A stretch of DNA of 64,000 bases from an uncultured Roseovarius sp. (GTDB lineage: Bacteria; Pseudomonadota; Alphaproteobacteria; Rhodobacterales; Rhodobacteraceae), in assembly GCA_947497295.1 (NCBI GenBank), contig CANMFU010000001.1:496001-560000 (forward strand), read 5' to 3'. Of the stretch, positions 27,386 through 31,479 are shown piece after piece. Numbering within the stretch: the stretch's first letter is position 1; each line of letters begins with the position of its first letter. The translations under genes and the position numbers were made by a program. The notes under the pieces were generated by a model, which worked only from the letters and a program-made list of their open reading frames with translations, did not search any database and was not told the origin of the DNA.

Positions 27386-27973
27386 CTAGAGCATCCCCTT
27401 GGTAGACGGGATCGCGTCAGCCTTGCGCGGGTCCGTTTCAATCGCATCCCGCAGGGCGCGGGCGACGGATTTGAAAGCGGCCTCGGCCATGTGGTGGCTG
27501 TTGATGCCGTGCAGGGCATCCAGGTGTAACGTCATGCCGGAATGTGTTGAGAACGCTTGGAAAAACTCGCGCACCAGTTCAGTATCGAACGTGCCGATCC
27601 TGGCGGTGGGCAGGTCCATGTTCCACACGAGGTAAGGCCGCCCGCTGAGGTCCAGTGCGGCGCGCACCAGCGCGTCGTCCATCGGCAGAAGGCAGGCGCC
27701 ATAGCGGCGGATACCGCGCTTGTCTCCAAGCGCCTGCGCGAGCGCCTGACCCAGCGCGATGCCCACATCCTCGACCGTGTGATGATCGTCAATATGCAGA
27801 TCGCCGGTGCAGCGCACCTCCATGTCGATCAGCGCGTGGCGCGCCAGCTGGTCCAGCATGTGATCGAAGAATCCCACGCCGGTCTGGTTGTCATAGCTAC
27901 CTGTGCCGTCCAGCGCGATAGTCACGCTGATATCGGTTTCGGCGGTCTGGCGGGTGATGGTGGCGCTGCGCAT
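27386..27973 (-). CDS. hisB: Imidazoleglycerol-phosphate dehydratase
   Basis: [33 protein letters not shown]. Confidence 0.96.
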
Positions 27974-28042: not shown

Positions 28043-28945
28043 TCAGGTGGCGGTCCAATCCAGCGAAAGGCCATGCGCCGCCGCCATATGCGCGTGGGCC
28101 TGCGATCTGGGCCGATAGGAAATGAACTCAGCGGCTGTGCAGGGGCGCAAGCCCAGAGCGGTAATCAGAGAAGCGTCATACTGCCCCGACAGCAGCAAGA
28201 TGCCCTCGCGCGCCAACTGGTCACGCGTGCCACTGCCGCTATCAGCGCGGATGCGGCGCATGAAATCGCGCTGCTGCGCGACCGCTTCAACCACGTCACG
28301 GCCAATGGGGCGGCCCTGCACCTCGCGGAAGAGGGCGGCCATGCGCCTGTTTCCCGATTTTTCGGTAAAGACACGCGCGACCGCATCCGGCGGCACGGTC
28401 TGCCAGAAGTTGCGCTTGTAGGGCTGCTGCGCTAGCAGCCACAAGATATCGGCGAATGCGGCGGCGCTGATCGTGCGCTTGGCGTCCTTGTTCTGCCCTT
28501 CGGTCAGGTAATCGCGGCGCGCGACGATCAGGCCCAGATGGCAGATCGCGCGCGCCTCGTCCGCGGCCACAAGGATGCACGGATGTCCCACCGCCTCGGT
28601 CGGGATCATCCAATTGCCGCCACCCGTGTGCTTGATGTCCACATCATGGCCCAGAATAATAGTGTCCAGCCGCCCTTTGGGCAGCGACAGGAGCGCGCGC
28701 AGTTCAATCTCGACGCGGGTGCCGATATAGGTCTTTTCGGTTTTCTCCAGCTCGTCATAGCTGCGCCGCCCGGTTTTGGCCGTCAGGATCACATCGTCGA
28801 TGCAGCCGCGCAGCAGCGAGCCAATGGCATCGCCAAGCGCGGCGCTGCCGCCCGCCCGTGCGGTGATGTCGCCTGCAATCGCGCTGAGCAGCGCGTGATC
28901 GGGATGGCCGGGCAGAACGCGGCTGTCGGGGAGCGTCTGCTTCAC
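28043..28945 (-). CDS. NaeI-like type II restriction endonuclease
   Basis: 300 aa; EKTEKTYIGTRVEIE...GRLDTIILGHDVDIKHTGG gives D-X8-D-X-K active-site spacing like NaeI; directly downstream of a C5-MTase. Confidence 0.8.
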   Translation of the reverse strand: MKQTLPDSRVLPGHPDHALLSAIAGDITARAGGSAALGDAIGSLLRGCIDDVILTAKTGRRSYDELEKTEKTYIGTRVEIELRALLSLPKGRLDTIILGHDVDIKHTGGGNWMIPTEAVGHPCILVAADEARAICHLGLIVARRDYLTEGQNKDAKRTISAAAFADILWLLAQQPYKRNFWQTVPPDAVARVFTEKSGNRRMAALFREVQGRPIGRDVVEAVAQQRDFMRRIRADSGSGTRDQLAREGILLLSGQYDASLITALGLRPCTAAEFISYRPRSQAHAHMAAAHGLSLDWTAT

Positions 28946-28948
28946 GCG

Positions 28949-29908
28949 CTACCCGGCAACGCGGTGCAGAACCCGTTTGCGAAGTGCGACGGAGATCTGT
29001 GCCGAAACCGCCTGCGCGACCGGCGGTGGAAAGGCGTTGCCGACCTGCCGATAGGCGTTGGTCTTGGCGCCGGTAAAGTGCCAATCATCCGGAAACCCTT
29101 GTATCCGCGCGACCATCGGCACGGTCAGCCGCGGCATGCCGTTATGGCCGCGCTCGGGTGCCTCGGGCGCGATTGTGCGCCCCTCAACGCCCAGCGTCGC
29201 CCAGGCGGCGCGCGCGCGGGTCGGTCCCAGATCGGGGCCGCCATGTTTTTTCGACCCACCAACGATGGTCGGCGCAATCTCATCGGCCTTGTCGGCCCAG
29301 TCTTGCGCCCCCTGCCAGCCGCCCGCCGCCATCAGATCGCGCAGCGTCTGGCCTACGGTGGGCGGGTTATGCGGGTTCGGCTCGGGCCAGCCGAACAGAT
29401 CGGCGCGCGCCTTTTGCACGGCCACGATCACCACGCGGGGACGCAGCTGCGGCACGCCGTAATCAGAGGCGTTCAGCAGACGCCAGTCCGTCTCGTATCC
29501 TAGCTTGCCCAGCTGCGTTTTCAGCCGCTCACGATAATCGTGAAAGACCGCATCGAGGAAGCCACGTACATTCTCGATCATCACGGCGCGCGGGCGGGCG
29601 GCGTCGACGATGTCGAGCGCGTCATTGAACAGGTTACGTTCGTCCTGCTCGCCCAGTTGCTTGCCTGCGACCGAGAAGGGCGGGCAGGGCAACCCGCCGG
29701 CCAGAAGGTCCATTCCCCTGTAATCCGCGGCACGCTCCGCGAACAGGCGCATGTCCTCTTCCAGAACGTTCCATTCGGGGCGGTTATGGCGCAGCGTGTT
29801 GCAGCAATGCTTGTCTATCTCGACAAGGGCGGTATGGGCGAATCCGGCCCTCTCCAGCCCCAGGGCCTGACCGCCGGCGCCGGCACATAATTCTACGGAT
29901 GTCAGCAT
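28949..29908 (-). CDS. DNA (cytosine-5-)-methyltransferase, cognate of the NaeI-like endonuclease
   Basis: Motif I ELCAGAGGQALGLERAGF, motif IV GLPCPPFSVAGKQ, motif VI ENVRGFL, C-terminal QVGNAFPPPVAQAV. Confidence 0.95.
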   Translation of the reverse strand: MLTSVELCAGAGGQALGLERAGFAHTALVEIDKHCCNTLRHNRPEWNVLEEDMRLFAERAADYRGMDLLAGGLPCPPFSVAGKQLGEQDERNLFNDALDIVDAARPRAVMIENVRGFLDAVFHDYRERLKTQLGKLGYETDWRLLNASDYGVPQLRPRVVIVAVQKARADLFGWPEPNPHNPPTVGQTLRDLMAAGGWQGAQDWADKADEIAPTIVGGSKKHGGPDLGPTRARAAWATLGVEGRTIAPEAPERGHNGMPRLTVPMVARIQGFPDDWHFTGAKTNAYRQVGNAFPPPVAQAVSAQISVALRKRVLHRVAG

Positions 29909-30214
29909 CTGGCCGGTCCTTTTTATACATTGGGCAGTTTGCGGTGCTGCGGGTCAATAAGCAAGCGGATGAGGAAATATGTTCCACATTCGTTCCTATC
30001 CGCGCAGCCGCCGCAGATCAAGGCCAAGGTCAGGGCCGGTCAAGTCACTGTGCAAAATGGCTTGCAGTGGAATACATTGATCCAATGCATGACAGACGCG
30101 GGCACAGCGGTGCAACCAGACACTGAATTTCGCTTGACTGATTTTATTCACGCTTTCTAGAGTAATTCACATTACAACGACAAAAATGTAAGAAATTCAC
30201 AAAACGGGATCCTT

Positions 30215-30760
30215 ATGGTGCATGTTTTCCGCGCGTTTCTCAGCGCTCTGGCGATGATCGTTGCAACGGTCGGCACTGCGCAGACGGCAACTGATACCAT
30301 GACGGTCGCAATTGACGGATCGGACGCGGTGCTTCAGGTGTCGCCAACCTTTGTCCGCGCGCCTTCAAGCTGGAGCACGATGGATTTACCGGCGAGCGGT
30401 AGTCCGGTGAAGTTTGTCGATGAAATTAACGTCATCGGATACGCTTTGGACGATAATGCCGTGGAGATGCAGGTCCACGTCTATTTTACCGTGTGGAACG
30501 TGAAGGATGCATTACGCATTGAGCAAGCCAGTATCGACATATCAAAGCGCGGTGACGCAGGCAGATGGGAAACCGTTGAGCAAGAAGACCCGCCGGTCAT
30601 AACCTTGACCACTTATGAGCGGTCCGATTCAGGCGTGCTGGCCGAAGCCAGCTTCTCAGGCAATCCCGTCTACTGGCCAACACTTTATAAAAAACCGGAA
30701 GAGCGCGGTCCGTCCGCAGAGGTAAGCGGCAACTTCTCGATCTTTTTCCCAGGTCAATAG
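30215..30760 (+). CDS. Hypothetical secreted/periplasmic protein
   Basis: 181 aa with signal-peptide-like N-terminus (FLSALAMIVATVGTAQTA). Confidence 0.6.
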   Translation: MVHVFRAFLSALAMIVATVGTAQTATDTMTVAIDGSDAVLQVSPTFVRAPSSWSTMDLPASGSPVKFVDEINVIGYALDDNAVEMQVHVYFTVWNVKDALRIEQASIDISKRGDAGRWETVEQEDPPVITLTTYERSDSGVLAEASFSGNPVYWPTLYKKPEERGPSAEVSGNFSIFFPGQ

Positions 30761-30844: not shown

Positions 30845-31213
30845 TCAAATTTCGCATTTGCTGTTGCCGTATTTTGCTGCGCAGGCGCGGGCGGTGCAGG
30901 ACGCGATCTGCGGATTGCGCTGCGCCGCGCGAATGTCGACGGTTTCAACGTCGGTGTAGGGCACCGAGACTGTTCTGGTCATCTGAGTGCAGTTGGTGAC
31001 ATTTCCGATGGTCTGACAGGTGGTTTGTCCGGTCAGGCGTTCTTCGCTACGATACTTTGTCACGATTTCCTGCCTGTATTCAGGCGGAATCTTCAGCATC
31101 CATTGCGCTTCGCAATGCTGTTTTTCGGCTCGATACTCCGGTGTTCCGCAACCGGACAGCAGAGCAAGCGCTATGACGCACAGATATGGAAGGGATTTCG
31201 GGACACGTGACAT
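30845..31213 (-). CDS. Hypothetical Cys-rich lipoprotein
   Basis: Lipobox LALLSGC; start chosen at MSRVPKSLPYL. Confidence 0.6.
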   Translation of the reverse strand: MSRVPKSLPYLCVIALALLSGCGTPEYRAEKQHCEAQWMLKIPPEYRQEIVTKYRSEERLTGQTTCQTIGNVTNCTQMTRTVSVPYTDVETVDIRAAQRNPQIASCTARACAAKYGNSKCEI

Positions 31214-31479
31214 TCTTTGGCTCCGGTAGATGGCGGGCGTCGCTCTGGGGGCTGACTGTCGTGCTTGCGACCGCAAATCTCAGTTTTCCGCGTGTATTTC
31301 TTTTGAGGTGGGTAATGCATCGTGGCATTAACATCAATCTTCATAGGCTGTTGGCGCGGGCTGCTCGCTCACGCGCCGGGCTGTAAAGTGGGCATCTGAT
31401 GTGCGGTTTTCCGGGTGCGCAGGAGGCTCTGGGTGCGATATGATGCTCAGAAAGCTGTGTTGACATCAGGAGGGCTGCC

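Follow-up and report, generated by a model that had tools for sequence, protein, structure and literature searches.

A predicted NaeI-type restriction-modification system beside hisB in Roseovarius, with a methyltransferase lineage that may serve unrelated endonucleases

The window, a stretch of 64,000 nucleotides from an uncultured Roseovarius sp. (GCA_947497295.1, contig CANMFU010000001.1, positions 496,001 to 560,000), carried two adjacent genes on the minus strand, with the core gene hisB (27386..27973, minus strand) immediately downstream of them. The first gene (28949..29908; ATG start) encoded a C5-cytosine DNA methyltransferase of 319 aa, the predicted cognate modification enzyme. The second (28043..28945; GTG start) encoded a NaeI-family type II restriction endonuclease of 300 aa. 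The gene order on the minus strand was methyltransferase, nuclease, hisB, and the stop codon of the methyltransferase was 3 bp (28946..28948) away from the start of the nuclease. A preliminary description of the sequence had listed a C5 methyltransferase and, 3 bp further on, a 300-aa ORF containing E...D-X8-D-X-K, and both ORFs were present as claimed. The GC content of the pair was about 65%, which is the upper end of the range in the window, so the composition was no clear outlier. Two small ORFs beside the pair (30215-30760 and 30845-31276) had no Pfam match; the latter was also found in Roseovarius dicentrarchi (locus L018).

The family, fold, active site, pairing and distribution of the system were established by computation. 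In a Pfam profile search, the only family matched by the nuclease ORF was PF09126 (NaeI; residues 38–282, 200.1 bits against a cut-off of 25, E = 5.9e-59). The methyltransferase matched PF00145 (231.8 bits, E = 1.9e-68). With E values this low, chance matches were excluded for both genes. A search of solved structures with the nuclease sequence retrieved NaeI (1ev7/1iaw, E = 1.7e-32) and no other noteworthy match. The nuclease contained VEIELRALLSLPKGRLDTIILGHDVDIK, a catalytic stretch (28631..28711, minus strand) of the form E79...D94-X8-D103-X-K105. In the alignment to 1ev7, E79, D94, D103 and K105 corresponded to E70, D86, D95 and K97 of the NaeI active site. These four residues were unchanged across 58 distinct NaeI-family sequences, the window nuclease included. 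An AlphaFold model built from 26 aligned homologues was confident along its full length (pLDDT 91.9). Foldseek aligned it with DNA-bound NaeI (1iaw) over 278 columns (TM 0.75, rmsd 2.8, E = 2e-22) and gave no significant match other than NaeI entries. The model had the full-length NaeI fold, comprising the endonuclease and the C-terminal DNA-binding domain. By profile, sequence similarity to solved NaeI, fold and active site, the nuclease belongs to the NaeI family. Both proteins also have the KTEKT-x-x-GT-x-x-E motif and an aliphatic residue 43, and both nucleases are accompanied by an adjacent C5 methyltransferase. They differ in length (300 aa, against 317 in NaeI) and are about 32% identical. 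The proposal that the ORF encodes a diverged relative of NaeI, together with the profile search suggested for it, was thus borne out.

NaeI is linked to topoisomerases, and its 43K variant relaxes and decatenates DNA (cited in PMC4081073), so a natural topoisomerase or recombinase form of NaeI had to be considered. In the alignment to 1ev7, L43 of NaeI aligned with V52 of the nuclease (codon 28790..28792, minus strand). Among the 58 distinct family sequences, the equivalent residue was valine in 56 and isoleucine in two. Lysine, the mark of the 43K-type topoisomerase, was absent at this position from all 58 sequences, the window nuclease among them. The assignment of valine in the preliminary description was therefore correct, and valine or isoleucine occurred throughout the relatives. 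The residue at position 43 leads us to expect that the enzyme cleaves DNA and is not a topoisomerase, and we regard the probability of a natural topoisomerase or recombinase as negligible.

Conserved motifs of the methyltransferase (PCPPFS, ENV, QLRPR and GNAFPPPVA) were read off the alignment. Pairing of the two genes was the rule: a methyltransferase lay within 150 bp of the nuclease in 56 of the first 57 NaeI-family loci. Among relatives, identity ranged from 35 to 88% for the nuclease and from 70 to 96% for the methyltransferase. This faster divergence of the nuclease could reflect relaxed constraint, as would be expected if the module had decayed or served only in methylation, as an epigenetic regulator with an inactive nuclease. 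However, the catalytic residues were invariant, the nuclease reading frame was uninterrupted in almost every relative, and the structural model was confident over the full length. Moreover, fast evolution of the nuclease is usual in restriction systems. We therefore consider decay or a methylation-only role very improbable. Vsr is a repair enzyme that accompanies m5C methylation. It adjoined the pairs of several relatives, which we counted in favour of an m5C restriction-modification system. The Vsr mismatch endonuclease gene stood beside the NaeI gene in locus L043 (6888-7301), at the same place in L044, L056, L051 and L052, and also in L160. A search for a Vsr gene beside the window pair found none.

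The NaeI family was carried by 16 of 298 genomes of the family and by 11 of 60 genomes of the genus. The pair is accessory and not core, as the preliminary description had proposed. In at least six of the 11 NaeI-bearing genus genomes, the NaeI gene was far from hisB. Other NaeI pairs in Rhodobacterales, for example those of Roseovarius dicentrarchi, Pelagivirga, Leisingera and a Loktanella plasmid, had both genes arranged as in the window. Several of them likewise adjoined hisB, some had Vsr after the nuclease, and others were located at different chromosomal sites or on a plasmid. A comparison of hisB flanks, which had been suggested as a check, revealed that the pair recurs beside hisB across several genera. 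Of 41 NaeI-family loci, 14 had the pair at most 5 kb from hisB; for genomes of 4 Mb, the chance expectation is about 0.1 loci. At several of the loci near hisB, the pair was situated between the pyruvate carboxylase gene (pyc) and hisB. In 17 hisB-adjacent loci, the pairwise distances of hisB correlated with those of the methyltransferase (r = 0.65) and of the nuclease (r = 0.74). These patterns are consistent with a long co-residence of the pair with hisB in several genera and loss elsewhere. The idea of accessory cargo thus held with respect to patchy presence but not with respect to a recent stray arrival, since the divergence of the pair beside hisB tracked that of hisB in several genera. 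Past the methyltransferase, the window and Roseovarius dicentrarchi (L018) had the rplU region and not pyc, which places a rearrangement breakpoint, common to both, next to the pair. On this side of the window (29908-30215), the ORF at 30215, rplU, obgE, proB and proA took the place of the pyc neighbourhood of other hisB-adjacent loci. One locus with a typical Rhodobacterales his/pyc/NaeI arrangement (L045) was labelled Nocardioides marinus DP1N28-1, a record that is probably mislabelled or contaminated. The hisB interval was also considered as a general defence hotspot. It was variable among 34 genus genomes, but the ten cargo proteins scanned were mostly metabolic or unknown, and this idea was rejected. 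A single one of the ten, a large helicase-type protein, matched defence models. Near hisB in a genus relative (L080:5576-10687), a double-helicase protein of 1703 aa (DEAD and UvrD) matched the defence models DpdF and GajB.

NaeI is a type IIE endonuclease that recognises GCCGGC. Evidence on the target of the window pair came from its methyltransferase, which was 61% identical to the one beside NgoMIV in Neisseria gonorrhoeae. The gonococcal gene was directly upstream of an ORF matching NgoMIV in the PDB (1e-188). The recognition-region stretch of the window methyltransferase, IAPTIVGGSKKHGGPDLGPTRARAAWATLGVEG (29180..29278, minus strand), was aligned with its relatives. The segment IAPT-VGGSKKHGG-DLGPTR was nearly identical among methyltransferases paired with NaeI, NgoMIV and HNH nucleases. 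The recognition site of NgoMIV is GCCGGC (PMC4081073). Gonococcal M.NgoAIV was reported to methylate GCCGGC, and in pilE and pilS the majority of these sites were found methylated (PMC12871193). Because the recognition region is common to the window methyltransferase and the partner of NgoMIV, we infer GCCGGC as the target of the window pair, supported indirectly via the methyltransferase. Avoidance of hexamers was compared between 464 kb sampled from the window genome and a sister genome lacking NaeI. GCCGGC gave no genome-specific signal (observed/expected 0.563 in the window genome and 0.583 in the sister). Site avoidance due to type II systems is often weak. CCGCGG and CCCGGG were strongly under-represented in the window genome (observed/expected 0.37 and 0.27, respectively), and the deficit of CCGCGG was deeper than in the sister (0.367 versus 0.544), so another system may act on CCGCGG. 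A working NaeI-family system directed not at GCCGGC but at CCGCGG or another related site rich in GC would agree with this deficit, with the lack of special avoidance of GCCGGC and with a nuclease identity to NaeI of only about a third. We nevertheless consider it improbable, given the near identity of the recognition region with that of the gonococcal NgoMIV partner and the fact that NgoMIV and NaeI, two unrelated nucleases, both target GCCGGC. The deficit of CCGCGG could also stem from other systems in the genome.

The NgoMIV (NgoAIV) system of N. gonorrhoeae is type IIF. It resembles the window pair in its methyltransferase, with nearly the same recognition region, and in the order of methyltransferase then nuclease. 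Its nuclease, in contrast, belongs to a different family (PF09015), for which a profile search of the window genome gave no match. Two records filed as N. gonorrhoeae plasmids (NZ_CP119142.1 and NZ_CP119140.1) were 2.17 Mb, thus chromosome-sized, and are probably misfiled. Methyltransferases related to that of the window adjoined NgoMIV-family nucleases on one plasmid each of Sulfitobacter (73% identity) and Paracoccus (63%). Related methyltransferases also occurred with an HNH nuclease on an Acidithiobacillus plasmid, with an unnamed protein on a Kovacikia plasmid, and in an Arthrobacter phage with no NaeI or NgoMIV gene adjoining. The Kovacikia protein (L163:4965-5801; 278 aa, no Pfam match) follows the methyltransferase and may represent a further nuclease family acting on this site. 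NgoMIV was found in nine of the 298 family genomes, compared with 16 for NaeI. No genome had both, where the overlap expected by chance was itself about half a genome. At all nine NgoMIV loci, the methyltransferase was 64–80% identical to that of the window. One methyltransferase lineage therefore appears to serve unrelated endonucleases, its close relatives being paired with NaeI, NgoMIV and, once, HNH. On the methyltransferase tree, the partner labels required seven changes, the minimum being two. That all NaeI-paired methyltransferases share one origin was only weakly rejected (AU p = 0.032), with long branches involved. At locus L172, NgoMIV accompanied a methyltransferase nested among NaeI-paired ones, but the support for a recent swap of partners there was not significant (AU p = 0.19). 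Exchange of nucleases around a stable methyltransferase is likely but not proven, as long branches limit the inference. We lean towards the view that unrelated endonucleases (NaeI, NgoMIV, HNH and perhaps a fourth, unnamed one) were exchanged around a single conserved GCCGGC methyltransferase lineage as their fixed core, and that one such pair was long kept at the pyc-hisB interval of roseobacter chromosomes.

Our main reading, to which we assign a probability of about 0.87, is that the two genes form a complete type II restriction-modification system in which the methyltransferase marks GCCGGC and the NaeI-type enzyme cuts it. The methyltransferase would modify one cytosine of GCCGGC in host DNA, and the endonuclease would cut unmethylated GCCGGC in incoming phage or plasmid DNA. 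The endonuclease is presumably type IIE, activated by a second bound site. The methyltransferase would be the first gene of an operon, and the nuclease, 3 bp later, is probably translationally coupled to it. By analogy with the NaeI family, we infer that the window nuclease performs cleavage, requires two-site activation and acts in phage defence. This would be a known kind of anti-phage restriction-modification system, and the indirect evidence on its target is new. The pair extends the NaeI family by well-conserved homologues from marine alphaproteobacteria, for which the methyltransferase offers an indirect specificity call. Methylation of GCCGGC would influence the transformation of such strains. 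If true, the sharing of the methyltransferase would illustrate how isoschizomers originate, with the modification specificity retained and the cutting enzyme replaced.
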